Shown one piece after another: positions 7,871 through 31,948 of a stretch of DNA of 35,262 nt (its first letter is position 1; each line of letters opens with the position of its first letter). This DNA is from Chitinophaga pinensis (GTDB taxonomy: Bacteria; Bacteroidota; Bacteroidia; Chitinophagales; UBA10324). The notes beneath the pieces are model-generated. The model was not told where the DNA came from. It did not search any database and was given only the letters and a program-made list of their open reading frames with translations. Both the position numbers and the translations under genes were made by a program. The stretch is taken from assembly GCA_945903305.1 (NCBI GenBank), contig CAMDOA010000023.1:1-35262 (forward strand), read 5' to 3'.

Positions 7871-8037
7871 TTTTTTTTTGCACCAATAAATTCAGTGAAC
7901 TTTTCAATAGAGAATTTTTCAATAAAAAATCCGATTGAAAATTCAATTTCAAAAAAAAATATATACCTGTGTTTTAAAAAATAAACCGTTAATAAAACCA
8001 TTGCCATTTAAATTGGAAAATAAAATATTGTAAATGG

Positions 8038-8065
8038 TTGAATGCAATCTGAAATTTTATATTTG
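8038..8065 (+). promoter_or_regulatory. Bacteroidota-type promoter for the 8085 gene
   Basis: A perfect -7 element, TATATTTG (8058-8065), fits the TAnnTTTG consensus. A TTG at 8038-8040 lies 17 bp upstream, where the -33 TTTG element is expected. The -7 box ends 19 bp before the ATG at 8085, giving a very short leader. Confidence 0.6.
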
Positions 8066-8084
8066 CCCAAAACAAATTCAAACA

Positions 8085-9065
8085 ATGAAAAAAATTACAC
8101 TACCTTTTTTAATGCTTTTATCTTTTGCAACTTTTGCACAACGAAGTGCACCGGTTTCAAATTTCGTTTCAGTTGCGGATTTTTCAAATGAAAATTTCCG
8201 CGCTATCACCGATACATTGTTTCCTTTAAGTTTTACAACTGCAATGACCTGTACACTCACGGTTTATTCAGTAGTTGGCGATTCAGGTTATGTGGTTGGT
8301 ACTAATGGTTATGGTGATAAAGAAAAGGCACAACGATATGATTTGTCGTCGTATCAGTTATTGGAAGGTGATGTAACCGGAGCCTTAATCTGGGCTGGTG
8401 GAAAATCGGTTTCTTCCACTCCCGGTAATGTAGTTTTAAAAGTCTATGCGGTTGGCGGTACCGGAGCTCCGGGAACTTTAATCGGCACATCAAATCCTGT
8501 GACAATGGATTTAATTGATACTACCAATGCAAATGGTTTTACTTATTTCAGTTTTGCATCTCCTGCAGCAATTCCAACAAACGGAAACTTTTTTGTGAGC
8601 ATGGAAATGTCGCAAGTTACAGGTGATACTATTGGATTGGTTAGTACTGCAAATGGTTGTGTTGAAACCACCGGTTACTCTTATGAAAAATGGAGCGATA
8701 ATACCTGGCATTCATTCTTAACAGCCTGGCCTCTTGATATTGATATTGCCGTTTTCCCAATTATCGATCATGAATTTGGTGTGGGAGTGAACAGTATTAA
8801 TTCCGGTATTAATGCGATAAATATTTTTCCAAACCCAACAACTAAAAATATTAATTTGAATTATGTTCTGGCATGTAATTCTTCAGTTAATATTAAATTA
8901 ATGAATGCTGCAGGAATTGAAATTATGAATTTAAACGAGGGTTCACTTAATAAGGGAATACATAATAAATCAATTGACATTTCAAATGTTTCTAATGGTG
9001 TATATATGTTGAGTGTTGAAACCTTAACCGGAAAATCTATTCAAAAAATTGTGGTAGCTCAATAA
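8085..9065 (+). CDS. T9SS-secreted protein, type A sorting domain (paralogue of 9258-10268)
   Basis: 326 residues. I chose the ATG at 8085 rather than an in-frame ATG at 8034: it gives a clean signal peptide (MKKITLPFLMLLSFATFA|Q), and the upstream ATG lies inside the promoter. The body (about 20-240) is a beta-rich domain with GDKEKAQRYDL, VLKVYAVGGTGAPGTLIGTSNP and FFVSMEMSQVTGDTIGLVST; I recognise no named family. The last 82 residues are a T9SS type A sorting domain (IFPNPTTKNINLNY... ending SIQKIVVAQ), so the product should be exported across the outer membrane. It shares its middle domain with the convergent gene downstream, suggesting duplication. Function unknown. Confidence 0.85.
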   Translation: MKKITLPFLMLLSFATFAQRSAPVSNFVSVADFSNENFRAITDTLFPLSFTTAMTCTLTVYSVVGDSGYVVGTNGYGDKEKAQRYDLSSYQLLEGDVTGALIWAGGKSVSSTPGNVVLKVYAVGGTGAPGTLIGTSNPVTMDLIDTTNANGFTYFSFASPAAIPTNGNFFVSMEMSQVTGDTIGLVSTANGCVETTGYSYEKWSDNTWHSFLTAWPLDIDIAVFPIIDHEFGVGVNSINSGINAINIFPNPTTKNINLNYVLACNSSVNIKLMNAAGIEIMNLNEGSLNKGIHNKSIDISNVSNGVYMLSVETLTGKSIQKIVVAQ

Positions 9066-9257: not shown

Positions 9258-10268
9258 TTACTTGCGAGCAATGCAAATTTTGCTGAAGAGTCGTTCCTGC
9301 TGAGTTGAAATGGAATAATAATAATATCCGGCAGGCAAATGACTTATATTCATATTGCAGGTATGAACTCCTGATAACTGAAAACCCAAATCAATATTGC
9401 TGACTACTTGCCCCAATTCGTTTACAAAATCAACCTTTACTTGTGCAGGTTTTCTAATCGAAAATTTTACATTAAGAAAATCGGATGCGGGATTTGGATA
9501 AGCCCTAAACAGAGATAAATCTCTAAGAGAAATGGCGCTGTTGCCAACCGAAGAATCAGGAATAAAGACCGGCCAAATCCAGTAATCAGCATTTATTCCA
9601 TAAGTTCCTACACCTCCTAATGGCAAAAAATTTCCATTCGATTTTAAAACATAAGCCAATTGTTTTCCGCTATAACAATTATGCGGAGTTAAATAAACCG
9701 CAGCCGTATCACCTGAAACAGCAGGTAATTCAATAGCTGCAAAAAAAGAATCGTTAGTATAAATAACTCCCGGAAACGGAAATGTGGTAAACAATCCGGA
9801 AAAAGAATTGGTATCAATATCTGTCATCGAAACCGGATCGGTATAAGCCACCATTGTATCAGGTGCATGAGTAACCGGTTCAACAGAATACATTTTGGCA
9901 ATCATACTCCCGTTAGTCAAATTTGCCTTCTTACCAAACAACGCCAATATGGTGTAAACTCCACCACTTCCGGAAACACCAAATTTTTGCATAATTTCTT
10001 TGTCGCCATTCGAATTATTTCCGCCGATATAACCTTGCGCCGGAGAATTCAGTTTAAAAATTTTTAAAGTATCGCCACAAAAACCAAAGCCCAAACTATC
10101 CTGCGAACCGGGAATAAGTGTATCATAAAAAATCCGTTCAGTATTATGTGGTCGTAAAATGCTGGAAGCAGAAATTTCTTTTACTGAATGAAATCCTTGC
10201 TGTGCAAAAGCGTTGAAATTTAAAAACGAAACTGACAGGATAATAAAAATGTAAATGTGCTTTTTCAT
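9258..10268 (-). CDS. T9SS-secreted protein, type A sorting domain (paralogue of 8085-9065)
   Basis: 336 residues from the ATG at 10268, which gives the signal peptide MKKHIYIFIILSVSFLNFNAFA|Q; an in-frame ATG further upstream (10325) would add 19 residues incompatible with a signal peptide. The middle domain aligns with the product of 8085-9065: GYIGGNNSNGDKE against GYVVGTNGYGDKE, AKMYSVEPVTHAPDTMVAYTDPVSM against LKVYAVGGTGAPGTLIGTSNPVTM, and FFAAIELPAVSGDTAAVYLT against FFVSMEMSQVTGDTIGLVST. The last 83 residues are a type A sorting domain (FRAYPNPASDFLNVKF... ending LFSKICIARK). Exported surface or secreted protein of unknown function. Confidence 0.85.
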   Translation of the reverse strand: MKKHIYIFIILSVSFLNFNAFAQQGFHSVKEISASSILRPHNTERIFYDTLIPGSQDSLGFGFCGDTLKIFKLNSPAQGYIGGNNSNGDKEIMQKFGVSGSGGVYTILALFGKKANLTNGSMIAKMYSVEPVTHAPDTMVAYTDPVSMTDIDTNSFSGLFTTFPFPGVIYTNDSFFAAIELPAVSGDTAAVYLTPHNCYSGKQLAYVLKSNGNFLPLGGVGTYGINADYWIWPVFIPDSSVGNSAISLRDLSLFRAYPNPASDFLNVKFSIRKPAQVKVDFVNELGQVVSNIDLGFQLSGVHTCNMNISHLPAGYYYYSISTQQERLFSKICIARK

Positions 10269-10352
10269 TGGGGTGGTTTTTTTCTCATCAAAAATAATTT
10301 TTATTCGGAATTGTTTTGTCACCATTTTGCACAGCGATTTTGAAATTGTTAC

Positions 10353-11138
10353 ATGAATAAACTATTTACAACAAAAGAATTTTTGATTTATCTGATTAAA
10401 TCGAAATCAAAATACTATATCCACTCTCCTTTTGTATATACTTTTATTAATGAAGTACTGAATGATAAACGAAGTTTTTATTGTTATGAGGAAATTGAAA
10501 GTCTTCGAAAAAAACTGGAAGCCAATGATGCAAGAATTGAAGTAGAAGATTTCGGAGCCGGCTCTTTGTTGGAAAAGAAAAACACAAGAACAATTTCATT
10601 TATTGCAAAAACTTCTGCAGCACCGAAAAAGTATGCACAGTTGTTATTCCGAATCATTCTGCATTTCAAATGTAAAAACATGCTGGAACTTGGAACTTCA
10701 CTGGGAGTTACCACCGCCTACTTATCAGCAGTAAATCAGAATGAAAAAGTTTTTACTGTTGAGGGAAGCCAATCAATTGCTGAAGAGGCTGCCATAAATT
10801 TCAGCTTGCTCAACCGAAATAATATTAAATTGATTCAGGGAAAATTTGAAGAAAAGTTAATTCCAACTTTAGTTGAAATGAAACAGGTTGACCTCTTATA
10901 TCTGGATGGCAACCACCGGCTGAATCCTACTCTAGATTATTTTAATTCATGTCTCCCGTTTTTTACCGAATATTCTATTGTGGTCATGGATGATATTTAT
11001 TGGAGCAGTGAAATGAAGCAGGCCTGGGAGCAATTAAAAAATCATTCGTCGGTTACACTTAGTATCGATTTATTCAGAATGGGAATTTTGTTTTTCCGCC
11101 ACGACCGAAACAAAGAACATTTCCGGCTGTATTTCTAA
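10353..11138 (+). CDS. Class I SAM-dependent methyltransferase (Methyltransf_24-like)
   Basis: 261 residues, cytoplasmic. The SAM-binding motif I is MLELGTSLGVTTAYLSA (about 110-126). It is followed by the acidic end of strand 2 (VFTVEGS, about 132-138), a motif IKLIQGKFEE (about 153-162) and motif II DLLYLDGNHR (about 175-184, D/H typical of Methyltransf_24 and O-methyltransferase-like families), then VVMDDIYWSSEMKQAWEQL (about 206-224). The N-terminal 100 residues are helical (KEFLIYLIKSKSKYYIHSPFVYTFINEVL), as seen in many Bacteroidota homologues. The substrate cannot be inferred. It is divergent from the T9SS gene (84-bp gap) and 52 bp upstream of the M16-like pair, which has its own promoter-like box. 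Confidence 0.85.
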   Translation: MNKLFTTKEFLIYLIKSKSKYYIHSPFVYTFINEVLNDKRSFYCYEEIESLRKKLEANDARIEVEDFGAGSLLEKKNTRTISFIAKTSAAPKKYAQLLFRIILHFKCKNMLELGTSLGVTTAYLSAVNQNEKVFTVEGSQSIAEEAAINFSLLNRNNIKLIQGKFEEKLIPTLVEMKQVDLLYLDGNHRLNPTLDYFNSCLPFFTEYSIVVMDDIYWSSEMKQAWEQLKNHSSVTLSIDLFRMGILFFRHDRNKEHFRLYF

Positions 11139-11190: not shown

Positions 11191-12873
11191 ATGAATTACA
11201 GGTTTTTCCTGCTATTATTTTTTCTTCCGTTAGTGACAAAATCACAAGTTGATGAAAATATTTACTCTCAGAATTTTGAAAATGGTTTAACTTGTATCGT
11301 AATTGAAAATGCAACCATTCCACTGGTAACTATTGAATGGGTGGTGCGCGCAGGAACCATTTATGAAACCAAGGAGATAAAAGGTTATGCATCACTGCTG
11401 CAAAAATTATTTTTTGCCGGCAATAAAGATTATCCCACAAAAAATTTAATGAGCCAGAAACTAAATCAAATGGGTGCAGTTATCGGTTCCACTCAAAGCG
11501 AAGAACATACTTCGGTATATCTCACCTGCTCAAAACGAAATTTAGAAAATGCATTAAAACTTTTTTTGAGCGCTGTTAAGCAACCCCTGTTTCAAATGGA
11601 AGAAGTTGATTCAGCAATAATTGAATTACTTAACGAGCAGGCATATACTCAGGGCGATCCGTATTTTCTGTTTGATCAGCAGCTTAATAAAAATTTATTT
11701 CCAAATGCACTCGAAAAGAAAGATGCATTGATTACTTCTAAAATTGCCTCCACTACTTCCCCGGAAAAATTAACCCTGTATCAGAAATTATTTTATTCGC
11801 CAAATAATTCATGCATTATTATTTCAGGCGATGTAAATCACAAAGAAGTTTTTCGAAAAGCAGGAACTACTTTTTATGCCTTGTTAAAAAATAATTATTT
11901 ACCCGCTGATATCTATCAGACTGTTGCTATTAAAAGTTTAAAATATACCGGACAATTTGTTCTTGAAACTCCGCTTGCTCAAAATCCATTACTCGTAATT
12001 TCGTTTCCGGTTCCCGACCTTCGCGAAAATGCATTCACCTCTTCCGCTGGTGATTTATTGGAAGCTTTAATAAATTCATCAGGCTCTTCCTTAAATAAAA
12101 AACTGGTAGCCGAAGGATATGCGTATCAGATTAGCAGCCGGTATCGTAAATTAAAATTCGGTTCTTCCTTTGATTTTATTATTTCGCCAAAGCCCGAAAA
12201 ATTTGGTGAGTGTTATGATTTAGCACGGAAAGAAATTATGGCCTTGGCAAATTTCAGCAGTTACTCAACTGAACAAGTAAAACAGGCTTTCCAACTGCTT
12301 TATTCAAAAAACGCATTCAACACTGAAAAATGTGCTCTGTATTCACATTTTATTGCCGCCAATTGGGCAAAAACAAATTCAATTCCTGAATTAAATACGG
12401 GTGATTTTTCAGAGCAATTAAAATCATTAAACGAGGTAATTAATTATTGTCAACTCTATTTTCTTAACAAACCATTTATTGCCGGATTATTGATTTCGCC
12501 ATCGCAAAAAATCAATTTTAATTCGACCGCTATTTTCACAACTACTTTAAAGTTGAGCGACTATACTATTTCATTCACAAAAAGTGATGATCAGATTTTT
12601 GATCCGATTAACAAAGAGATGATAAATAGTCTTGCTCAGTTATTGAAAATAAATCCGGATTTAAATATTGAAATAATTAGCAATCAGGATGAGGTGGAGA
12701 AAAAAGAAACTGCGAAGGCAAGATTTTTAGCGGTATTTAAAATGTTGGAATCATATGGAGTAAGTGAAACAGTGTTAGATGCGATGACTGTTTCACTTTA
12801 TATCCGCCACAGCAACAACGAAGAACAATTACGAAACAACATGACCGTACAGTTTAAATTAATAATGCCATGA
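11191..12873 (+). CDS. Exported M16-like protein without zinc motif, fused to an OmpA-like C-terminal region
   Basis: 560 residues. A signal peptide (about 1-18, YRFFLLLFFLPLVTKS) leads into an M16 (pitrilysin-type) fold: ENGLTCIVIEN and VTIEWVVRAGTIYE (30-60), then a second M16 lobe at about 245-440 (TGQFVLETPLAQNPLLVISFPVP, LLEALINSSGSSLNKKLVAEGYAYQISSRY). The zinc motif HxxEH, expected directly after G65, reads S68-L-L-Q71-K72, so both metal histidines and the catalytic glutamate are missing and peptidase activity is not expected. Residues about 458-535 (ISFTKSDDQIFDPINKEMINSLAQLLKINPDLNIEIISN...ARFLAVFKMLESYGVSE) resemble a degenerate OmpA-like peptidoglycan-binding domain. Its stop overlaps the start of the next gene by 4 bp (ATGA), indicating translational coupling and probably a heterodimer. 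Probably periplasmic. Confidence 0.82.
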   Translation: MNYRFFLLLFFLPLVTKSQVDENIYSQNFENGLTCIVIENATIPLVTIEWVVRAGTIYETKEIKGYASLLQKLFFAGNKDYPTKNLMSQKLNQMGAVIGSTQSEEHTSVYLTCSKRNLENALKLFLSAVKQPLFQMEEVDSAIIELLNEQAYTQGDPYFLFDQQLNKNLFPNALEKKDALITSKIASTTSPEKLTLYQKLFYSPNNSCIIISGDVNHKEVFRKAGTTFYALLKNNYLPADIYQTVAIKSLKYTGQFVLETPLAQNPLLVISFPVPDLRENAFTSSAGDLLEALINSSGSSLNKKLVAEGYAYQISSRYRKLKFGSSFDFIISPKPEKFGECYDLARKEIMALANFSSYSTEQVKQAFQLLYSKNAFNTEKCALYSHFIAANWAKTNSIPELNTGDFSEQLKSLNEVINYCQLYFLNKPFIAGLLISPSQKINFNSTAIFTTTLKLSDYTISFTKSDDQIFDPINKEMINSLAQLLKINPDLNIEIISNQDEVEKKETAKARFLAVFKMLESYGVSETVLDAMTVSLYIRHSNNEEQLRNNMTVQFKLIMP

Positions 12874-14873
12874 GAATCAAAAACTTTTTGTTATTAATTT
12901 TTAGTTCACTGCTCGTCAATTCAGGATTTTCGCAAAGTATTTTTAAAGGAACTAAAACCAATTTTAATACAAACGCAAAAACAGATTTTAATTTCAGCCG
13001 CACATTTGTTACGCAGGGTACAAAATATATTTCTTCTTATAAATTAGTTGATATTACTGATGGAATACAATTCGCAAGCATTACTATAATCAATAGCAAA
13101 GCTGATTTTAAAATCACCGTTCAATTAACCATTCAAACTGACACAACACTTTTTGAAATTAGTTACAATGATAGCCTCGGAAGTATTTTTGGATTAAAAG
13201 GAACTTTTAAAAAAGAACCTGTAAATAAGTATCCGCTTTCAGTTGCATTCTTAACTGAGAACCGCACTTATCTGAAAGTGAATCAGATTATCAGAAAAAA
13301 CACATCATCGCCCGAACATTTTTTATTAGATAGAATTTTTGCCGATGATTTATTGGTCAACACCACTCTGCTTGAGAAACTCAAAGGCACACAACCAACA
13401 GGAACAGGAAATAAAATTTTAGTCATGGCCGATTTCGGAGTGCCAAATGCCAATGCATCAAAATCTGCTGATCAAAAAATTATTCCTGCTACCAATAATT
13501 CTGATAATACTAAAACTGCAATAACCACAGAACCTGTAAAACCGATTGAGCCAAAATCGGTTGCAAACCCAACTGTAACTGCACCAATTGAACAACCGGT
13601 AATAACTGCTCCGGCTCCACTCAAAATAAAATTCACCAACAGTAATGTAAAAGATTTTTCTATTGACAGTATCCGCACTATTCTGAAACCGGTGGAGAAT
13701 GAAATAGTTTCTGTTCAATTATTTATCAATGGCGGCACATCAAATTATACGGTTGCCAAGGAAGGTATTGAGGCATTAGCTATTAGCTGGGCTCTAAAAA
13801 GCGGGACAAAAACAATGACCGCCGAACAAGTGCAAATGAAAATGGAGCAATTAGGAATTAATATAAATTACTCGCTGTCGAATGATTTCTCTGTAATAAG
13901 TATGAACTGCCTGCGCAATCAATTTGATGAAAGCTGGCAATTGTTCAGTGATTTAATTGCCCGAAGTAGTTTTCAAACCGATGTGTTTGAAAGTGCGCGT
14001 GATGAAGTTATCAGTAGTTTAAACAATCAAAGTGCATTTGATATACTGAAACAAAGTGCCTTGAGTTATTCATTTGTAGGAAAACAATATGATAAAAATC
14101 CGAATGGTTCCACAGCGTCAATTAACAAATTAACTTCTGATGAAGTAAAAAAACATTATGCAACAATTATGGTTCGCCGACGATTGACATTAGTTGTTTG
14201 CGGAAATTTTTCATCTGACGATTTGAATCAGAAAGTGAAAACCGGATTAAAAGGAATGGTGAACGGAACAAACGCAACCACCGCAATTGGCGGTGTCGAT
14301 TTCAATGGCTCGACTTTCAAATTTGTCAGTATAAATGATAATAATATAAATCGCATTATTGCTTTTTCGGCAGCACCTGATGCCGGAAGTCAGGATGAAT
14401 TATCATTGACTATTGCCTTAACCATTTTAAACAATCGAATAAATACTGAGGTGGAACAAAAACGAAATCTGACCAATGATTGTGAACTAAATATTGTTAA
14501 CTGCCGCCAGAATTTTTGCATGTTACAGCTATCAGCCGCCGATCCGGAAAAAGCCATTCAGGCAATAATTGATGAAATTAAAAAGGCGAAGAAAATCGGA
14601 TTCGCTGCTGATGAATTGCAGATTGCAAAAGATCAGTTTATCACTCAATATTATTTACAAAATGAAAGCAACGAAGCTCTGGCTTTAGCAACCGGTAAAA
14701 GTGAAATAAACGATTCGTGGGAAGATGCTGAAAATTTATATGCCTCTATCAATAATCTTTTATTGAATGATGTAAACGCAGCTTTGCGTAAATACATAAA
14801 AGGCTTCAGGTTTTATTATTCGGGCGACAAAGATGCCGCGAACGAAATTATTTTTACACAGAAGCTGGATTAA
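12870..14873 (+). CDS. Exported M16-like protein without zinc motif, with extra N-terminal domain and Pro/Thr linker
   Basis: 667 residues. Signal peptide MRIKNFLLLIFSSLLVNSGF|SQ. Residues about 22-190 form a beta-rich domain of unknown family (FNTNAKTDFNFSRTFVTQGTKYISSYKL, FKITVQLTIQTDTTLFEISYND). A low-complexity Pro/Thr/Ala linker follows at about 195-250 (EPVKPIEPK, TVTAPIEQPVITAPAPLK). An M16-type region occupies about 265-665: SVQLFINGGTSNYTVAKEGIEALA, ISMNCLRNQFDESWQLFSDLIARSSF, LTLVVCGNFSSDDLNQKV and a second lobe after 480. The position of HxxEH (about 302-306) reads A-L-A-I-S, so no zinc ligand or catalytic glutamate is present. It overlaps the preceding M16-like gene by 4 bp. In other bacteria such pairs comprise one active and one inactive subunit; here neither looks active. 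Probably periplasmic; partner and role unknown. Confidence 0.8.
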   Translation: MRIKNFLLLIFSSLLVNSGFSQSIFKGTKTNFNTNAKTDFNFSRTFVTQGTKYISSYKLVDITDGIQFASITIINSKADFKITVQLTIQTDTTLFEISYNDSLGSIFGLKGTFKKEPVNKYPLSVAFLTENRTYLKVNQIIRKNTSSPEHFLLDRIFADDLLVNTTLLEKLKGTQPTGTGNKILVMADFGVPNANASKSADQKIIPATNNSDNTKTAITTEPVKPIEPKSVANPTVTAPIEQPVITAPAPLKIKFTNSNVKDFSIDSIRTILKPVENEIVSVQLFINGGTSNYTVAKEGIEALAISWALKSGTKTMTAEQVQMKMEQLGININYSLSNDFSVISMNCLRNQFDESWQLFSDLIARSSFQTDVFESARDEVISSLNNQSAFDILKQSALSYSFVGKQYDKNPNGSTASINKLTSDEVKKHYATIMVRRRLTLVVCGNFSSDDLNQKVKTGLKGMVNGTNATTAIGGVDFNGSTFKFVSINDNNINRIIAFSAAPDAGSQDELSLTIALTILNNRINTEVEQKRNLTNDCELNIVNCRQNFCMLQLSAADPEKAIQAIIDEIKKAKKIGFAADELQIAKDQFITQYYLQNESNEALALATGKSEINDSWEDAENLYASINNLLLNDVNAALRKYIKGFRFYYSGDKDAANEIIFTQKLD

Positions 14874-14972: not shown

Positions 14973-15836
14973 TTAATTTCTGAATCCAATCGCCATGCCT
15001 AAACGAATATCTCGCTCACGCGACCAATTCATTTCTATATTTTTTTTGCCTGAAATAGCATATCCATAACCCCCATAAAAACTGACTACAGTGCCATTGT
15101 TTCTGCCTGCAATAAATTTGTATCCAATGGTCGCACCTGCTTTTAAATATTCGTCGGTCAGGTGTTTTGCATTTGACTTATAGCTGCTTTCGGTAGCGAG
15201 GTGAATATATTTTAAATAGGTGCCTGCAAAAAAACCACTGCACCGGTTTCTATCAGCTTCTGCATCTGGATAGTATCGGAAATCGCAAAGCAGCTGAAAA
15301 GTATTATAGCGTGGTGGCTTACTAAAAATATCAAATGGACGAAAGCTATTAATGCCTGCTCCAAAATGTAAACCCATTCGCTTATTTATTTGCGGCTCTA
15401 TGTAAACCGAAAAGGGGCCAATCAGATTGGTGGTAACATCAACCAACGAATTTTTTTTGAAATTCGATTTCTGATGCTGACTGGGCAAAGTACTTGTGTA
15501 AATGGTGGTTGGGCAATCGCCGTTGATAGTACACTTTGTAATAAAGAAATAATTGGCACTCATAGTGCGCTCTTCAACTTCCCCATTTTTAAAAAGCACT
15601 TTTACTATAATGTTTGAATCGGCTAGCCTGAATAGTACTGCCTGAACAAATTGATTGGAAGTGTAATTTGGAAAAATATGATACTTCTGTTTTTCCCACA
15701 CATCAATCACAGCTCCAACTCGTGTACTGATAATAATTGTATCGGTAGATATTATAGTGCCTGTTACGGATTGTGAAAAAGCGAAAACCGAAAGTTGCAT
15801 CATGAAATTCAGGAACAGAAAAATTTTTGTTTTCAT
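14973..15836 (-). CDS. Exported outer-membrane-barrel-like protein, unknown function
   Basis: 287 residues from the ATG at 15836 (an ATG two codons earlier at 15842 is equally possible; the frame stays open to 15962 but those 40 residues are not signal-peptide-like). The signal peptide MKTKIFLFLNFMMQLSVFAF|SQ is followed by a beta-rich N-terminal segment (GTIISTDTIIISTRVGAVIDVWEKQKYHIF) that may be a small periplasmic or cargo-facing domain. From about residue 130 alternating strands suggest a barrel: FSVYIEPQINKRMGLHFGAGI, FQLLCDFRYYP, GFFAGTYLKYIHL, LKAGATIGYKF, GTVVSFYGGYGYAIS. It ends RLGMAIGFRN, an aromatic-containing terminal strand although not ending in F. No named family recognised. 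Converges on the M16-like pair; no strong terminator hairpin lies in the 100-bp gap. Confidence 0.7.
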   Translation of the reverse strand: MKTKIFLFLNFMMQLSVFAFSQSVTGTIISTDTIIISTRVGAVIDVWEKQKYHIFPNYTSNQFVQAVLFRLADSNIIVKVLFKNGEVEERTMSANYFFITKCTINGDCPTTIYTSTLPSQHQKSNFKKNSLVDVTTNLIGPFSVYIEPQINKRMGLHFGAGINSFRPFDIFSKPPRYNTFQLLCDFRYYPDAEADRNRCSGFFAGTYLKYIHLATESSYKSNAKHLTDEYLKAGATIGYKFIAGRNNGTVVSFYGGYGYAISGKKNIEMNWSRERDIRLGMAIGFRN

Positions 15837-16074
15837 TGCCATTTGTTTTTGTGATAGCAAAATTGCACTGGCTTTTTTCTGATGCGCTTGACTTATGTCA
15901 AGAAAAAAACTAGCAGGTAGTTTTGTATGACTCAGATGCAAACCAGAACAAGTGCAAAACAAAAACTGATTCTGAAATTTCTGATTTGCCTATCTTCTTG
16001 CTCCTGAACAAAATCGTTACAGTACATATTAACCATTCCCATAGCTGAAATATTAAATACTATTATTGCACTTC

Positions 16075-23769: not shown

Positions 23770-24768
23770 CTAAAAACGCGGGCAATAAACTTTCTTGCTT
23801 CCCATTCCTGAAAGTCGGGTAGTGTATAAAAATGAAATTTCAGTTCCGCCTAAACCATGACTTGCTTTGGTTAAACTGCTTGTATTGACATCATAACTTA
23901 ATGCAAACGAAAAATTATCTATATCAAAACGGGTAACTATAATAAGCGCATCATTCCATCTGTACCATGAACCCAGATAAACATTGTATCGGTTCGATTT
24001 TGTTTTATCCATTTTAACCCTGATGAATGATCCTAAATTAAACTCGCGATATCCTCCCTGTATGGCATACAATGCTTTCGGAATTAATTGCAGGCGTTGA
24101 TTCAGTTTAATTTCAGCACTGGTATTGATTAAAAATTTTCGATATAAAATGGCATTCCAGGTTCCGCCAAATGAAAGCGATGGTTGGTTAATATGAAACA
24201 CAGCTGCTCCAATTGAAAAATTAGAAAATTGAGAAGGAAGGTAATCATATTCAACTCCAAGCGAAAAATCAGTAAAGCTGGTTGTTGAAATAAAATTTTC
24301 ATTGGCCGGTTTCCCTTCATACTCATTATCCCAGTGCAATGCGGTCATATCAAAATGACTGTTTGAATAGCTTGCCGCTCCACCCAGACTAATGAACTGA
24401 TTTCCCCATCGCCCTACTTTTTTATGATACGAAAAAGCACCACCTAATTGAGTAGTTGTATATCCTGCATCACCGGCTTTATCGGTAGTTGCCAAAAAAC
24501 CAAATCCAAAAATATTTTCTTTGTTCTTGCTGGTTGGCTTACTGAAATCAACAGAACCCGAAAAAGTAGAATACGGTGTAGTAACACTACTCCATTGATT
24601 TTTATAAATTCCGGCGAATCTCATGTTGCCATTAAACATTCCGGTTTGAGCCGGATTGATGTGCAATGGTGTGGTATAATATTGCGAGAAGTGAACATCC
24701 TGACCAACCACCTGATTGGTACAGGCCAGAAGCAACAGGCAAATGGATAACTGAATTTTAAATTTCAT
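23770..24768 (-). CDS. PorP/SprF family outer-membrane protein of the type IX secretion system
   Basis: 332 residues. Signal peptide about 1-22 (FKIQLSICLLLLACTNQVVG), followed by the family hallmark QDVHFSQYYTTPLHINPAQTGMFNGNMR (23-50) and KNQWSSVTTPYSTFSGSVDF. The rest alternates beta strands typical of this barrel: GFGFLATTDKAGDAGYTTTQLGGAFSYHKKVG, QFISLGGAASYS, FSLGVEYDYL, and a late NFSFALSYDVNTSSLTKASHGLGGTEISFLY. PorP/SprF proteins lie in the outer membrane and are needed for secretion or anchoring of specific T9SS cargo; SprF serves the adhesin SprB in Flavobacterium. The gene lies 65 bp downstream of the giant type B cargo gene on the same strand with no terminator between, so the pair is likely an operon and a dedicated cargo-anchor unit. 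Confidence 0.92.
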   Translation of the reverse strand: MKFKIQLSICLLLLACTNQVVGQDVHFSQYYTTPLHINPAQTGMFNGNMRFAGIYKNQWSSVTTPYSTFSGSVDFSKPTSKNKENIFGFGFLATTDKAGDAGYTTTQLGGAFSYHKKVGRWGNQFISLGGAASYSNSHFDMTALHWDNEYEGKPANENFISTTSFTDFSLGVEYDYLPSQFSNFSIGAAVFHINQPSLSFGGTWNAILYRKFLINTSAEIKLNQRLQLIPKALYAIQGGYREFNLGSFIRVKMDKTKSNRYNVYLGSWYRWNDALIIVTRFDIDNFSFALSYDVNTSSLTKASHGLGGTEISFLYTTRLSGMGSKKVYCPRF

Positions 24769-24833
24769 AATTTATTTTTTTATGAACGAACTGAATTTTA
24801 ATCTCTTGATTTTTTATTACTTAATTCTTAACT

Positions 24834-27800
24834 TTATCTTACCAATGTTACATTACCCTGCAAATCCAATCGCTGTCCGTTCACACAGGTACCTTCCATG
24901 TACCATACATATACACCCGGCATTCCGATTTTATTTCTCACATTTCCATCCCAACCGGTATCCTTATCATTTGTTTCAAAAATTAAAGAACCCCATCGGT
25001 CATATATTCTGAAATAACTGAGCGCTTTTAATCCTTTACTTCTTACATAAAGTTTGTCATTATTGCCATCACCATTCGGCGAAAAAGCGTTAGGAATATA
25101 AACCACATCAGAATTGCATCCCACTCTGATTATCACATCATCTTGTGATGTACATCCAAAGTCATTAGTGATATATAAAGTGTATGTTGTAGTAACATTT
25201 GGTTGAACAATTGTTTTCAAGCAACCTAGGCACTCCACATTTTCATCCGGTGTCCATAAATAAGTAACCCCGGTTCCAGAACCTGAAAGTGTTACATCAT
25301 CTCCTGATAAAACGATTTGATCTTCACCAGCATTTACTACCGGCAAGGCATGAACAATTACCTGCACATAACCCGTATCTGAGAAACAAATTCCATCAGA
25401 AACTATCACCATGTAGTTAGTTGATTGCCCAACATAGCAGGTTGGGTTAGGAATAAATGCATTATCTAATCCTGTTGAGGGTATCCACTCATAATAAGCC
25501 CCGCCGCTTGCTGATAATTGCGTTTGCATTCCCTGGCATACATCTACTTTATCAATGGTTGTTGCAGTCAGCGGATAAATGACGGTTACTAAAACAGTAT
25601 CGCTGTTCGAGCAGCCAATATTATCCTGACCAGTTACAATATAATTTGTAGAAACGGTAGTTGTGGTGGTTGGATTTGCCACCAGGTTATTATTTAAATC
25701 CTGCGCCGGCGACCACATATAACTAATTCCTCCAGTGGCACTAAGCCCCAATGGTGTTCCAAGACATAAAAACATATCGGGCCCGGCAACAATATTTGGC
25801 AATGGGTGAACAATTACATTCACCAAATCATTTGCAAAACAGCCATTAGTATCAGTAACTGTTACAGTATAATCTAATGTAGCTGTTGGCGAAGCAACAG
25901 GATTAGCAATTAAAGAATTATTTAAAGAGTTTGCTGGCGCCCATGAAAAACCAATACCGCCCGAAGCACCTAACATAACTGACTCCCCGAAACAAATAGC
26001 TGTGTCAGTACCAGCATATGCCGGCGGAGGAGCAAGCACACTGATTACTAAAGTATCATAGTTAATACATCCCCAGGCACTAATTCCTTCTACAACATAA
26101 GTTGTAGTAATTGTTGGTGAAGCTGTTGGATTTGAAATTCCGGCATTATTTAATCCTGTAAAAGGCAGCCAATTATAAGTAACACCACCAGAAGCATTAA
26201 GCTGAGTTGATGTACTGAAACAAATGGTGTCATCAATTCCTGCTGAAATTATTGGATTATTATGAACTGTGATAACAACATTATCTGAAGCAGTGCACCC
26301 GTTTACACCGGTTACCAATACCGAATAAGTAGTTGGTATTATTGGTGATGCAATTGGATTATTAATTATAGAATTACTTAATGAGCTATTCGGCGACCAT
26401 AAATAGGCAACTCCACCTGTAGCATTTAGCTGAGCTGTAAAATTGATACATATATCCTGATCAATACCTGCATTGGCAACCGGAATTGGAATTACGGTAA
26501 TGACCATTGCATCCATAGCGGAACATCCATTGGCATCAGTTACTATTACTGAATAAGTAGTTGACGAGATGGCATTTGCCACCGGATTTGAAATGGACCA
26601 TGATGTTAAGTTAATTGAAGGCGACCAATTATATCCATTACCGCCTGACGCATTTAACTGCACCGATTCGCCAAAGCAAACAGTGGTATCAAGACCTGCA
26701 TATGCCGGTGGTGCATTTACAACGCTGATAATAATATCATCGGTGTTTGTGCAACCCCATACATCAGTGCCAATTACATTATAGGTAGTTGTAGCCAATG
26801 GAGAAGCTATTACCGGGTTTACAACACCTGAATTTAATGTTGCTGCCGGTGACCATAAATAAGTTGTTCCGCCGGTTGCTGTAATTGTGCCGGTAGTTCC
26901 GATACAAATTGTTTGATCAGTTCCTGCAGAAATAGTTGGATAATTATGAATGGTTAAAACAATATCGTCAGCTTTACTGCAACCATTTATATCTGTTACG
27001 ATTACTGTATAGGTCGTTGAAACAGTAGTTGTTACAGCCGGATTTGATACATTAACTGCTGATAAATTTGTAGCCGGACTCCATAAGTAGGAGATTCCTC
27101 CAGTTGCATTGAATTGAGTAGAACTGTTTATACAAATATCCTGATCAATTCCGGCACTTGCCAGTGGCAAGCTATTTACATTTATAACAACATTATCGTT
27201 ATCAGTACAACCATTAACATCAGTTACAACCAAAGTGTAGGTGGTTGTAACAACCGGACTGGCAAACGGATTAGAAATGTTTACATTACTTAACGAAGCA
27301 TTATTGTTCCATAAAAAAGCAATCGCACCTGAACCATTTAGTTGCAAGGAATCATTCAGACAAATAGCGGCGTCAGTTCCTGCATTAGCAATTGGCAATG
27401 TGTTTACGGTTACAAAAACTGAATCCTGATTCACACAACCATTGATATCAGTACCGGTTAATAAATATTGTGTAGTAATCATAGGTGAAGCTGTAATTAC
27501 TGCATTACTTGTTGATGAAATACCTGATGAAGGCGACCAGGAATAAACTGTTGCTCCTGAAGCTGTTAGGGTAGTTGATGTATTCAAACAAATTGAAACA
27601 TCAGGTCCGGCATTTACAATAGGAAGCATATTTACATTTACAACAATATTGTCTGAACCGGTACATCCTGCAGCATCGGCCACCATCAATGTATAGGTTG
27701 TTGAAATGGTCGGATTAGCTACCGGGTTATTAATATTTGTTGCACTCAATCCTGTTGATGGACTCCATGAATAGTTTACACCGCCTGAGGAAACGAACGA

Positions 27801-30800
27801 AGCAGATCCGTATATACATATTGTTTGATCAGGGCCTGCACTGGCTGTTGGAGGTACATTTACTACAATTGATTGAATCAATGAATCAACACAACCAAAA
27901 TTGGTAATAACTTTTAACTTGATATTATATGTGCCTGAATTATTAAAAGTGTGTGAAGCGGTAGAAGTTGAAGCATAATTGCTGGCTCCGCTTGCTGCAT
28001 CACCAAAAGTCCATTGATAGGTTGCTATCGGGTCAAAAGAAGTTGATGTGGAAGTAAATGTGATGCTTCCGCCAGGGCAAATTGGATTTGCACTGATTAA
28101 AAACTGTGCATCCGGTAATTGATGTACTACCACAGTATCAGTAATTACTGATTGACACATCAAAGCATCAGTAACTGTTTGCGTTACAATGTAAATACCG
28201 GGAGATGTAAAATTGTGATTTGGGTTTTGAAGAGTGGAAGTATTTAAAGCACCACTTGCCGGATGTCCAAAATTCCAACTCCAATTTGAAAGTGCCACAA
28301 GTGAAGATGATGTATCAGTAAAGGCAACAATTCCATTATTGCATAAATCATTAGTTGATAATGTAAACCCAGGAATTACTTCTGAAATAATTAAACTATC
28401 TAAAGGCAGTGTATAAATACAACCTGTTGTTCCTAAAATAACTGCCGGAAAGTATATACCGGAATTATTATAGGTATAACAAACTGAATCGGTATTAGTT
28501 AAATCAACAGAACCATCACCAAAATTCCAGATATAATCATCTGTGTTATTTGATGTGGCATAAAAGCAAACTTGTTGTGGTGAACAGCCGGCTATTGGTG
28601 TAACAACAACCGTTGCCGATGGACCGGTAATATTTATATAATCATTAAAAGTTATTGTTGATACGCATCCGTTTGATGTGATCATAGTAAGCGTTACATC
28701 AAACAGGCCTGCCGTTGTATAAATATGGAACGCATCAAAAGAGGTGGAAGAAGAACCATCACCAAAATTCCATAAGAAATTAGTAGTAGAATCATATCCT
28801 GTAGAAAGATTTGAAAAATTTACTTGAAGCGGAGGACACACTGTAGTCGTGCTATCTCCAACAAAATCCGTAAAGGGTGTAGTAATATGAATATATAAGG
28901 GTAGCGTTAATGTGTCTTTGCAGCCCCACCAGTCTTGGGCAATTAGGGTTACATCAAAATAGCCGGTGTCGAGATAGGTATAACATGGTGTAGGCAAACC
29001 GCTTGTGCCAATTCCATCGCCAAAGTCCCATGAGTATTGCAATGAACCAACCACATCAAATGTATTATTGATAAAACAAATGGGTGTTCCCAAACAAACA
29101 GATGTATCGTTTGCTTCAAAGTCAATTTCGGGATGACCAACTGTAATGAAATTTGAATTTGTTGATTTAATGTTGACACAACCATGATTATCAGTTACAG
29201 CAAGCGTTACAGAATAGGTACCGCCATTTAAATAAGTATGCGATGGGTTTTGCAGAGAAGAAAAATTTGCGGCTCCGCTTGATGGATCACCAAAATCCCA
29301 GCTCCATCCGGTAATAATACTTGTGGTTGATGATGATAAATCTGTAAACTGAACCTGAAGCGGTGCACATCCGGTAGTAGCCGTTACACTGAAATTTGCA
29401 ACAGAACCATACACTGTTAAATAGCCAGGTTTCAACATGGTATCCTTACACCCGTTTACATCCGTTGCAATTAACTGAACTGTATAAATACCAGGCAATG
29501 GAAAAGTTAAGCATGGATTTGCAAGAGTTCCATTATAGGGTGAACCTGCTGAACTTGTATTCCAGATTTTCCAGTTATAAGAACTGGCGTCAACACTTAA
29601 ATTATTAATACAAAAATAAAATGGAGCGCAACCTGTTTGCGGAGTAATTGAAAAATCGGCCTGAACATTTTTTATCTGAATAGTTTGCGTGGTAGTATGC
29701 GAACATCCTGACGCATTATTTGTAACGGTCAAGGTTGCAACATAAGTACCTGTAGTATTAAAATGAACTGAAACTATTGGTGCATTTGAACTGCTTGGTG
29801 TTCCACCTGGGATACTCCATAAATAAGTATCAGCACCAATAGATGTTTCACCATGAAGTACAACATCAAATTTATTGATGCAACTTTTCTGCAGTGTAAT
29901 TTTAGCAAGCGGTGGATTGATATGTATATAATCATATAGAATTAATGTATCGCAACAACCGTTGTTGCAAGCTATTAACGACACATCAAAGTATCCGGTA
30001 TCAGTATAAGTATAAGTTGGATTTTTTAAAGTGGACATCGTAGTAAATGGTGGCCCACCATTAAAATCCCATTTATACGAAGTGGAGGGGAAAATATTAG
30101 TTGATAAATTGGTAAATAAAATGGGCACTCCAATACAAGTATTGACCGGATTTGCCGAAAAATTAACAACAGGTTCAGTACCTGAACACACATAATTATT
30201 TATCTTGAGTGTGTCTTTACAACCCTGCGCATTCGTAATAATTAATCGCACATTAAAGCAACCTGAAGTATTAAAAGTGTGTGTAGGATTTTGAAGAGTA
30301 GATTGTACAAGATTGGGGTTCCCCGTATCACCAAAATTCCATTCCCACATTATCGGAAATCCAAAACTTCCAGTACTGTTAAATGTTACATCAAATGGAA
30401 TGCAACCATATTGCCCGCTGGCCACAAAACTGGCAATCGGACAATCAATATGCACTAAACTATCCATGACAAGCGTATCAGCGCATCCTTGTGAAGATGT
30501 AGCAATAAGTGTAACATCAAATACACCGCACTGTGTATAATTAACAAGGGGTGGATTTGTTGCAGTTGATGTAGCCGGAGTACCGCCTGGAAATTTCCAT
30601 TGATAAGTTAAAGCCCCAGTTCCGGTTGAAAGATTTGTGAATTGAATATTGTTTAATGGTGGTGCACAAACATTTTGCAAACCGGAAACACTGAAATCAG
30701 CATTTGGAGTTGCTCCTACTACAACAGTTGTACAATTGGTTGCAATGCAGTTTCCGGGAAATGTTAATTCAACACATATTTGATATGTTCCCGCTGAATT

Positions 30801-31799
30801 ATAAGTGATTAAATTGTCGGAGTTATTTGGTGTTGCTGAAATCCCACCGATTGTTGTCCAGGTTACTGCAAGTGCCTGAGAATTTGGCGATATTGCACAA
30901 TAGACAGATAAAGGCGCACAACCTGTTAAAGCAGTAATACTGAAGTTAGCAGCATTAGAGCCAATAATTACATAATTATTTTTCTTTATGGTATCTGCAC
31001 AACCATTTGGGCCAGTAACTATTAATTGCGTAAAATAAGCTCCCGATAATGGATAGTTAACTGTTGGATTTTGTAAAACCGAAGTACCAGGAACACCTCC
31101 CTGAAATATCCATTGATAATTATAAGGACCATTGCTTCCAGGATTTATGGAAGTATAAGAAACTGATATCGGAGCAGCACAAGCAATTGGTGGAGTAGAT
31201 GTAAAATCAGCAAGTGGTGGAGCATCAGGGCAAATTGCATTTGTAACGGTAGTATCATCTGTACATCCATTGCCATCTGTAATTACTAATGTAACTGATT
31301 TACATCCGGGTGTTATATAAGTATGTGATGGATTGTTGCCACTTCCGCCAACGCCATCACCAAAATCCCAAACATAATTTGTAATAGCGCCACCACCTAA
31401 TATCGATGTGCTATTAAATGTGACAGAAACCGGTGCACATCCAATATTGCCCGGGAAACTATAACTGGCTTGTGGTTTACAATAAATAACTACTTGCTTA
31501 ACAAGAGTACTTTGCTGACCACTTCCATTTGTTACTGTCAGCGACACATTATATGTCCCACAAATTGAGTAAGTGGTACTTGGATGTTGCTGAGTACTAT
31601 TGACACCCGAGTTTACACCAAAATTCCATTGGTATGTTAATGGGGCGGCACCAGTTGATGTGTTTACAAATGTTACGAGCGAAGGCGCGCAGTTCGGAAA
31701 CGAATAATTGATGTTAAAGTCAGCATTTACCTGTGCTTGTGTTCGTGCACTTACAAGTAAAGAGGCTATGAGTGCCAGGTGGTAGAGGACCTTTCTCAT
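24834..31799 (-). CDS. Giant modular surface protein: 15 PKD-like and 12 Ig-like modules, T9SS type B sorting domain
   Basis: 2321 residues from the ATG at 31799, which gives the signal peptide MRKVLYHLALIASLLVSARTQA|Q; an ATG 8 codons upstream is less suitable. Residues about 24-1319 hold some 15 PKD-like modules of about 86 residues, each with a YxWxFGDG-like strand, a (S/T)HTY turn, GxYxVxLxVTxxxGC and a cysteine early in the module. Residues 1320-2227 hold 12 modules of about 76 residues, each starting xAGxDxxIC and containing (Y/W)SP, NP and TTTYxVxxTDxxGC. The last 94 residues (about 2228-2321) are a gliding-motility C-terminal (CHU_C, type B) domain: YIPNAFSPNGDGNNDKL, FRIYDRWGSLIFE, WDGN, GVYVWYMEG. 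It should be a long, disulfide-rich, cell-surface fibre, adhesin-like or gliding-related (SprB-like in organisation). It lies upstream of and probably in an operon with the PorP/SprF gene. Confidence 0.9.
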   Translation of the reverse strand: MRKVLYHLALIASLLVSARTQAQVNADFNINYSFPNCAPSLVTFVNTSTGAAPLTYQWNFGVNSGVNSTQQHPSTTYSICGTYNVSLTVTNGSGQQSTLVKQVVIYCKPQASYSFPGNIGCAPVSVTFNSTSILGGGAITNYVWDFGDGVGGSGNNPSHTYITPGCKSVTLVITDGNGCTDDTTVTNAICPDAPPLADFTSTPPIACAAPISVSYTSINPGSNGPYNYQWIFQGGVPGTSVLQNPTVNYPLSGAYFTQLIVTGPNGCADTIKKNNYVIIGSNAANFSITALTGCAPLSVYCAISPNSQALAVTWTTIGGISATPNNSDNLITYNSAGTYQICVELTFPGNCIATNCTTVVVGATPNADFSVSGLQNVCAPPLNNIQFTNLSTGTGALTYQWKFPGGTPATSTATNPPLVNYTQCGVFDVTLIATSSQGCADTLVMDSLVHIDCPIASFVASGQYGCIPFDVTFNSTGSFGFPIMWEWNFGDTGNPNLVQSTLQNPTHTFNTSGCFNVRLIITNAQGCKDTLKINNYVCSGTEPVVNFSANPVNTCIGVPILFTNLSTNIFPSTSYKWDFNGGPPFTTMSTLKNPTYTYTDTGYFDVSLIACNNGCCDTLILYDYIHINPPLAKITLQKSCINKFDVVLHGETSIGADTYLWSIPGGTPSSSNAPIVSVHFNTTGTYVATLTVTNNASGCSHTTTQTIQIKNVQADFSITPQTGCAPFYFCINNLSVDASSYNWKIWNTSSAGSPYNGTLANPCLTFPLPGIYTVQLIATDVNGCKDTMLKPGYLTVYGSVANFSVTATTGCAPLQVQFTDLSSSTTSIITGWSWDFGDPSSGAANFSSLQNPSHTYLNGGTYSVTLAVTDNHGCVNIKSTNSNFITVGHPEIDFEANDTSVCLGTPICFINNTFDVVGSLQYSWDFGDGIGTSGLPTPCYTYLDTGYFDVTLIAQDWWGCKDTLTLPLYIHITTPFTDFVGDSTTTVCPPLQVNFSNLSTGYDSTTNFLWNFGDGSSSTSFDAFHIYTTAGLFDVTLTMITSNGCVSTITFNDYINITGPSATVVVTPIAGCSPQQVCFYATSNNTDDYIWNFGDGSVDLTNTDSVCYTYNNSGIYFPAVILGTTGCIYTLPLDSLIISEVIPGFTLSTNDLCNNGIVAFTDTSSSLVALSNWSWNFGHPASGALNTSTLQNPNHNFTSPGIYIVTQTVTDALMCQSVITDTVVVHQLPDAQFLISANPICPGGSITFTSTSTSFDPIATYQWTFGDAASGASNYASTSTASHTFNNSGTYNIKLKVITNFGCVDSLIQSIVVNVPPTASAGPDQTICIYGSASFVSSGGVNYSWSPSTGLSATNINNPVANPTISTTYTLMVADAAGCTGSDNIVVNVNMLPIVNAGPDVSICLNTSTTLTASGATVYSWSPSSGISSTSNAVITASPMITTQYLLTGTDINGCVNQDSVFVTVNTLPIANAGTDAAICLNDSLQLNGSGAIAFLWNNNASLSNVNISNPFASPVVTTTYTLVVTDVNGCTDNDNVVINVNSLPLASAGIDQDICINSSTQFNATGGISYLWSPATNLSAVNVSNPAVTTTVSTTYTVIVTDINGCSKADDIVLTIHNYPTISAGTDQTICIGTTGTITATGGTTYLWSPAATLNSGVVNPVIASPLATTTYNVIGTDVWGCTNTDDIIISVVNAPPAYAGLDTTVCFGESVQLNASGGNGYNWSPSINLTSWSISNPVANAISSTTYSVIVTDANGCSAMDAMVITVIPIPVANAGIDQDICINFTAQLNATGGVAYLWSPNSSLSNSIINNPIASPIIPTTYSVLVTGVNGCTASDNVVITVHNNPIISAGIDDTICFSTSTQLNASGGVTYNWLPFTGLNNAGISNPTASPTITTTYVVEGISAWGCINYDTLVISVLAPPPAYAGTDTAICFGESVMLGASGGIGFSWAPANSLNNSLIANPVASPTATLDYTVTVTDTNGCFANDLVNVIVHPLPNIVAGPDMFLCLGTPLGLSATGGISYMWSPAQDLNNNLVANPTTTTTVSTNYIVTGQDNIGCSNSDTVLVTVIYPLTATTIDKVDVCQGMQTQLSASGGAYYEWIPSTGLDNAFIPNPTCYVGQSTNYMVIVSDGICFSDTGYVQVIVHALPVVNAGEDQIVLSGDDVTLSGSGTGVTYLWTPDENVECLGCLKTIVQPNVTTTYTLYITNDFGCTSQDDVIIRVGCNSDVVYIPNAFSPNGDGNNDKLYVRSKGLKALSYFRIYDRWGSLIFETNDKDTGWDGNVRNKIGMPGVYVWYMEGTCVNGQRLDLQGNVTLVR

Positions 31800-31948
31800 A
31801 GTTTTAGTATTTTTTTGTGGCACTCTTTACACAACCATTCCTAAAAGGTTTCTATTATTTTAAAAATATTTATATCTGCATTTTTATCTCTGAATTAACA
31901 GCGATAAAACAAAAAAACTTTTTAGAAATGAGAACTTTATGCAAATGC

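Follow-up and report, generated by a model that had tools for sequence, protein, structure and literature searches.

The window analyzed here, a stretch of 35,262 nucleotides from Chitinophaga pinensis (contig CAMDOA010000023.1, one of 138 contigs in the genome assembly), carries two adjacent genes, termed A and B, whose products probably form a maintained, non-catalytic periplasmic heterodimer of the M16B type, that is, a pseudo-peptidase clamshell. The probability assigned to this reading is about 0.6. The absence of catalysis is well supported by the alignments, because the zinc/general-base motif is lost in A, the Arg/Tyr pair is lost in B, and no replacement motif is present. A preliminary description of this DNA had proposed a retained pseudo-peptidase pair with a non-catalytic role; the loss of HxxEH and of the Arg/Tyr pair, the active pairs found elsewhere in the order, and the purifying selection described below all agree with that proposal.

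The gene pair and its family

The open reading frames of A (560 residues) and B (667 residues) were found where two coupled M16-like genes had been described, and they overlap by 4 bp (ATGA, 12870-12873). The positions of the two genes and of the features discussed below are collected in Table 1. Pfam matches lie above cut-off for both domains of both proteins, with E values of 8e-19 (PF00675) and 9e-18 (PF05193) for A and of 5e-12 (PF05193) and 3e-7 (PF00675) for B. With an M16 N-terminal and an M16 C-terminal domain in each chain, A and B are assigned by sequence to the M16 fold family. Their sequence matches in the Protein Data Bank (PDB) comprise bacterial M16B subunits (chains of 3amj and 7v4y), mitochondrial processing peptidase (MPP) and the complex III core proteins, with insulin-degrading enzyme matched by A only and not by B. 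The nearest relatives found are Bacteroidota pairs, in records from Chitinophagaceae, Chitinophaga and metagenome-assembled genomes of Bacteroidota. Both proteins begin with a hydrophobic, signal-peptide-like stretch that lacks a lipobox cysteine, as read by eye, and because of these starts they are presumably exported by Sec and reside in the periplasm.

Table 1 Position of the gene pair, its sequence features and the preceding gene in the window.
Feature	Coordinates	Strand	Basis
Methyltransferase gene (Methyltransf_24)	10353..11138	+	Pfam; ends 52 bp upstream of A
Gene A, M16B-type protein with lost zinc site and putative OmpA-like C-terminus	11191..12873	+	Open reading frame list, Pfam, PDB matches, alignment
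SLLQK at the HxxEH position of A, residues 68-72	11392..11406	+	Alignment
Gly99 of A, Asn in the active type	11485..11487	+	Alignment
Glu149 of A, aligned with the distal zinc-ligand Glu	11635..11637	+	Alignment
C-terminal extension of A, putative degenerate OmpA-like domain with Asp500 and Arg511	12511..12870	+	Pfam, profile, alignment
Gene B, M16B-type partner of the inactive-subunit type	12870..14873	+	Open reading frame list, Pfam, PDB matches
Extra N-terminal domain of B, about residues 20-165	12927..13364	+	No Pfam match; partly β in a low-confidence model
Pro/Thr/Asn-rich linker of B, about residues 166-250	13365..13619	+	Composition; weakly constrained
ALAIS at the HxxEH column of B, residues 302-306	13773..13787	+	Alignment
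EQKRNLTN of B, residues 529-536, loss of the Arg/Tyr pair	14454..14477	+	Alignment

The zinc site of A

In what follows, genomes are denoted by G, related loci and their alignment rows by L, contigs by C and families by f. The alignment, which was first built without the loci that repeat the same genus genomes, places SLLQK in the HxxEH column, as the preliminary description had read it, and H, E and H fill this column in each of the 27 active-type rows (26 and that of G028). Among the six A proteins of this genus, the first His is replaced by Ser or Thr and the Glu by Gln or Leu without exception, and the second His is replaced by Lys in five. The distal ligand position holds Glu in three and Asp in three of these rows. 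A loss of the distal Glu had been suggested by the first alignment and was rejected when the wider alignment showed that Glu or Asp is kept. Of the elements that an active M16B enzyme combines in one subunit, HxxEH and the distal Glu, only the distal acid is present in A. The window protein also has Gly99 at a position occupied by Asn in 26 of 26 active-type A rows; insulin-degrading enzyme has at the aligned position the N of its NAFTSGEH, a residue that presumably has a substrate-binding role.

None of the spacings H..EH, HE..H, H..E, H.H, H..H, H...H and H....H occurs in the six A and six B proteins of the genus, the window pair included (one B ends at a contig edge). An intact HxxEH-type site elsewhere in A or B, the finding that would have overturned the preliminary description, is absent by sequence from both proteins. 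Each A protein of the genus contains 4 to 8 histidines and each B protein 2 to 4 (counting the B cut at the contig edge), and the only invariant ones in A are H106 and H540.

The partner half of the active site

The preliminary description had also read ALAIS, and hence no zinc motif, in B. The five residues do stand in the HxxEH column; they are not unusual, because no aligned B row has HxxEH at that column, and ALAIS represents the ordinary state of a partner subunit. The sequence HFVEH in the B protein of G035 is located in the second half of the chain, away from the motif column, and was not counted as a zinc site.

According to the sections of PMC12731061 that treat the M16 active site, an Arg/Tyr pair in the non-zinc half completes the site and is kept by most M16 proteins, MPP and the core proteins being exceptions. 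Both residues are found in 25 of 25 active-type B rows, and they are also kept by the partner subunit of the active pair on contig C46 of the window's own genome (row L004). Neither is found in the seven readable B proteins of the group that lost the zinc site (five of the genus including that of the window, G007 and G010); this count takes in only rows that reach residue 529, the B protein of G002 (L041) being unreadable there because its contig ends. E529 and N536 replace the Arg and Tyr in the window, whose B protein lacks the pair that partners in most M16B enzymes, MPP excepted, possess. As far as the aligned residues tell, both sides of the composite active site are lost in the same lineage, and the two losses, which are correlated within one or two lineages, cannot be counted as independent of each other.

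That the pair has gained a different activity, catalytic or dependent on a metal, at a rebuilt site is very unlikely. In its favor, E/D149 is retained at a former ligand position, and H106, C35, C113, C208, C341 and C420 are invariant in the genus. Against it stand the loss of both the zinc ligands of A and the Arg/Tyr pair of B, and the scarcity of histidines to replace them, as the two invariant ones in A and the single near-invariant one in B (H150) show no motif-like spacing.

Maintenance of the pair

Constraint on the two genes was expressed as the mean ratio of nonsynonymous to synonymous differences per site (pN/pS) over 15 genome pairs from six orthologous genus loci. As pS is ~0.7 and the corrected synonymous divergence (dS) is near saturation, pN/pS was relied on; the nonsynonymous to synonymous rate ratio (dN/dS) is rough, and its values of 0.000 are artefacts of infinite dS. 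A and B are kept by purifying selection outside the Pro/Thr linker. Mean pN/pS came to 0.21-0.23 in each of the three parts of A; in B it was 0.23 in the M16 part, 0.27 in the N-terminal domain and 0.58 in the linker. The methyltransferase gene upstream gave 0.25. A comprises 560 codons in all six genus genomes and B 665 to 699, with one B ending at a contig edge. The frames were cut from stop to stop, which makes the lack of internal stops a matter of construction; the evidence is their full and equal length. Maintenance of the pair, which the preliminary description had presupposed, is therefore consistent with full-length frames and with pN/pS of ~0.2-0.3 outside the linker. The opposite reading, that the pair is decaying, is hardly credible and is already contradicted by these data: a constraint below that of an active M16 gene in the same genomes and a long stem branch in the trees would speak for it, and the full-length frames, with A at 560 residues in 6/6 genomes and pN/pS of ~0.2, speak against it.

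Distribution of active and zinc-less pairs

The survey comprised an order-wide sample of 396 genomes and a phylum sample of 395 genomes, with G059 in both. A match to A was counted at E<=1e-25, so that stand-alone zinc-less proteins fall below the threshold. Such matches were obtained in 47 of the 396 order genomes, and the motif column was read in all of them: HxxEH is kept in 40 and lost in seven, namely the six genomes of this genus and G007, which belongs to another genus of the same family. The loss of the active site is specific to this lineage. B was found in 38 of the 40 genomes with HxxEH, always with the Arg/Tyr motif (38/38); on the stretches available, the remaining two (G028 and G086) showed no B. 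B adjoins A in all seven genomes with zinc-site loss. The genomic context, which had been suggested as a check on the pair, thus supports it, with active-type pairs elsewhere in the order and B beside A in the seven genomes with the loss.

A contig edge in G010, which belongs to a different genus of the family, preserves the final 26 residues of A (58% identity, E = 1.5e-4), and a B gene follows whose product has the N-terminal domain and lacks the Arg/Tyr pair. The phylum sample yielded 16 matches, and in each of the 15 besides that of the window an A protein with HxxEH is encoded. Among the 16 genomes of the family, which represent 8 genera, neither A nor B was found at E<=1e-15 in two that belong to a single genus.

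Domains added to A and B

The last 120 residues of A match the Pfam OmpA family (PF00691) with a single-sequence E value of 0.02, below the curated cut-off, and the matches obtained for G019 (1e-4) and G028 (0.004) are also below it. A profile built from 19 C-terminal regions matches the Pal structure 4g4v with a whole-sequence E value of 1.2e-5, followed by OmpA-type entries and, from E 0.09 on, by unrelated kinases. The column of Asp500 contains Asp in 15 of 19 rows and that of Arg511 contains Arg in 19 of 19, with both present in all six genus rows. These two residues align with Asp271 and Arg286 of A. baumannii OmpA, which bind diaminopimelate according to part of PMC5974059, and A therefore possesses the Asp and Arg of the diaminopimelate site. 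The assignment of this C-terminus as an OmpA-like domain is plausible but weak. Owing to the OmpA-like match and the retention of the Asp500 and Arg511 positions, A probably ties the complex to peptidoglycan through its C-terminus. What stands of the degenerate OmpA-like region in the preliminary description is the profile match to Pal and the retained Asp/Arg pair; a single-sequence match above cut-off is lacking, and the A proteins of the genus differ from the Pal/OmpA domain (PF00691) in having a shorter stretch between the Asp and the Arg.

The extra N-terminal domain of B has no Pfam match. It was found in 8 of 99 genomes, comprising the six of the genus, G010 and a weak match in G060, and it may have a stand-alone family. 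An N-terminal β domain followed by a Pro/Thr linker had been described for B; the additional stretch and a linker rich in Pro, Thr and Asn are indeed there, and the β content comes from a low-confidence model. As to the order of events, G007 combines a zinc-less A that has the C-terminal extension with a B that lacks the N-terminal domain, and G019 and G028 combine the extension with an intact HLYEH. These combinations suggest that the C-terminal domain came first, the loss of catalysis second and the N-terminal domain of B last.

A separate small protein (L072:2968-3432, minus strand; G060:C12:5967-6431) is 25% identical to the N-terminal domain of B (E = 1.5e-5) and has a sub-threshold match to HSP20 (E = 0.053).

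Structure prediction from 8-row alignments gave poor models, with predicted local distance difference test scores (pLDDT) of 48.6 for A and 36.4 for B. The model of A was used for a Foldseek search only and not for geometry. Each of the 50 matches listed contains an M16 protein (proteases, complex III, insulin-degrading enzyme), at TM-scores of 0.21-0.28 by query length.

Origin and stand-alone relatives

B is related to the partner subunit of active pairs. A appears either to have decayed in place from an active subunit or to derive from an older zinc-less paralogue. The latter origin forms part of a rather unlikely alternative to the heterodimer reading, according to which A belongs to an older family of zinc-less M16-OmpA paralogues in the order, the B partner was captured in the genus, and the function is that of the stand-alone paralogues. 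Such proteins do exist. Zinc-less A-like proteins of 574-674 residues without a B partner are encoded in twelve genomes of families f7 and f21, and the C-terminus, which was aligned in ten of the twelve cases, resembles that of A. In G048, G081 and G091 the zinc-less gene (587 residues) is flanked by the methyltransferase gene on one side and, on the other, by an intact active pair in opposite orientation; G035 and G060 have such a gene directly after the methyltransferase gene, and no pair was found alongside. Of the other stand-alone genes without B, six occur in family f7 and one in G071. The trees point the same way, as the A proteins of the genus and G007 form one group (support 98/93) apart from the main active-type clade (99/94).

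Other observations argue against the paralogue origin. In the same search, active-type A proteins match A at 23-31% identity (E of about 1e-71 to 1e-39) and the stand-alone proteins at 19-26% (E of 4e-22 to 1e-7), which places A nearer to the former. G019 and G028 combine the same kind of C-terminus with an intact HLYEH. Placement of the genus A proteins with active A of the same family was not rejected by the approximately unbiased (AU) test (p 0.14, or 0.22 with G007 added), and long branches meet in all trees, so that the zinc loss may have happened once or several times. For the A tree, five near-duplicate active-type rows and the outgroups were left out and the motif columns were masked; the HLYEH protein of G028 falls beside the active-type clade with weak support (82/39). 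In the B tree the genus, G010 and G007 constitute one group (98/98), with G010 among the genus rows.

The methyltransferase gene itself directly precedes active A, with B next where the contig allows, in G027, G042, G054, G066 and G086 of another family, a layout as in the window. In G019 it lies 0.7 kb before active A, and in G008, G011, G012 and G076 the active pair does not have it nearby.

The stand-alone zinc-less genes that follow the same methyltransferase gene in f21 are located at L120:5964-7724 (-), L122:4864-6624 (-), L123:1330-3090 (+), L124:3022-4770 (-) and L064:5549-7270 (-). An intact active M16 pair adjoins the zinc-less gene in opposite orientation in L120, L122 and L123, and the C-termini of L120, L124 and L064, which were aligned, are similar to that of A. 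Loci L059-L063, L065 and L066 (about 5.3-7.5 kb in each) encode zinc-less M16-like proteins of 607-674 residues with similar C-termini and have no B on the fetched stretch.

Proposed function

In the heterodimer reading, A and B would still pair as a clamshell, the chamber of which may bind, but not cleave, a segment of a peptide or protein. Through its OmpA-like C-terminus, A would anchor the complex to peptidoglycan, and the linker of B could serve as a flexible arm that carries the N-terminal domain to a partner. By analogy with the inactive core I and core II of complex III in mitochondria, the pair would work as a chamber with a structural or ligand-holding role.

A number of observations weigh against this reading. 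At the zinc site, the second His survives in L042 (SLLQH), and the Glu or Asp kept at position 149 would fit a weak residual metal site. The loss of the Arg/Tyr pair would not by itself prove inactivity, as MPP is active without it. Zinc-less A is somewhat less constrained than an active M16 gene: in ten pairs for each gene from the same genomes, pN/pS is 0.16-0.27 for A and 0.07-0.17 for the gene on contig C46, an imperfectly matched control, its pS being lower in several pairs. Regarding the C-terminus, the best-domain E value of the match to Pal 4g4v in the 19-sequence profile search is 0.0015, and the related proteins of L058, L059, L061, L063 and L064 have no Pfam OmpA match at E<=5. Pairing may be unnecessary for function, since zinc-less A-like proteins without B occur in two other families. 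Finally, the structure models of A and B are too poor to support the pairing, the chamber or the OmpA fold.

It is improbable that A and B constitute a regulatory decoy that tunes the activity of another M16 enzyme in the cell, for example the active C46 pair, by binding the substrates or subunits of that enzyme. The genome does encode M16 proteins with intact motifs, HLFEH on contigs C13 and C46 and HLLEH in a long protein of C19, and some pseudo-peptidases are known to regulate their active relatives, as described in part of PMC11266112. The motif-bearing protein of C46, however, shares no more than 24% identity with A and is encoded on another contig, next to a partner gene of its own, and no tie between A/B and the C46 pair was found.

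An extension of the heterodimer reading is offered tentatively, with the odds somewhat against it. A doubly dead M16B chamber would have evolved in bacteria independently of mitochondria, tied to the wall, provided with a flexible arm and engaged in periplasmic holding or assembly, and the zinc-less M16-OmpA proteins in at least three families of the order would represent a wider undescribed class.

Neighboring genes

Directly downstream of B and convergent with it is a gene for an uncharacterized protein (14973-15962, minus strand), for which tblastn gave no match at E<=1e-6 in the related loci searched. Upstream of the methyltransferase gene, 8034-9065 (+) and 9258-10325 (-) encode mutually similar proteins, the second of which has a type IX sorting tail (Pfam), and copies of these are found at the same place in several genus genomes. 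Farther away, at 23770-31823 (-), a PorP/SprF-like gene lies beside one for a protein of 2329 residues with 13 PKD stretches and a CHU_C sorting domain; the genome has 11 SprF-like matches. A link between the M16 pair and this type IX adhesin/SprF pair had been considered, since similar large repeat proteins are encoded close to A/B in G004 and G010 and, in G060, close to the stand-alone gene. It was rejected, as the closest SprF relatives in four genus genomes are on other contigs and each of 8 genomes has 9-11 matches.

Comparison with known systems

M16 pairs are the usual example of one active subunit combined with one inactive subunit. The bacterial heterodimers SPH2681/SPH2682 of Sphingomonas A1, TTHA1264/TTHA1265 and AlbE/AlbF, as presented in sections of PMC12731061, resemble the window pair in comprising two genes for M16B subunits, one of the zinc-site type and one partner. 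The window pair differs from these in lacking both the zinc site and the Arg/Tyr pair and in carrying extra domains on both proteins. A likeness also exists to core I and core II of complex III, an M16B pair that is usually not proteolytically active and lacks the Arg/Tyr pair; according to the same sections of PMC12731061, these core proteins touch membrane subunits and hold another subunit in their cavity. Yeast core I, like A of the window, is without HXXEH. Core I and core II belong to a membrane complex of mitochondria, and core II has a glycine-rich loop, whereas the window pair is bacterial, with signal-peptide-like starts and a putative OmpA-like domain. No bc1 gene was found among the 12 window proteins scanned with Pfam, and neither orthology to core I/II nor membership in a bc1 complex is indicated.

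FusC and PqqL are single-chain active enzymes. They function in iron acquisition by Gram-negative bacteria and share with the window pair the likeness of periplasmic M16 proteins (PMC12731061, in part). In contrast, no gene context of the iron-acquisition type was identified beside A and B; a TonB-type receptor-like gene is present at 16489.

In a literature search limited to open-licence PMC, no paper was found that describes a bacterial M16 pair lacking both sites, or an M16-OmpA fusion. In PMC7881567, M16 denotes a mutant number, and PMC4604654 does no more than list an M16 peptidase. M16B pairs, including inactive ones in mitochondria, are already known; within the open-licence PMC searched, a doubly inactive bacterial pair with an OmpA-like tail is new. 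The loss of both halves of the active site, while related genera keep a working enzyme, constitutes a natural experiment on what an M16 chamber does without cutting, and the pair may be a bacterial counterpart of the complex III core proteins.

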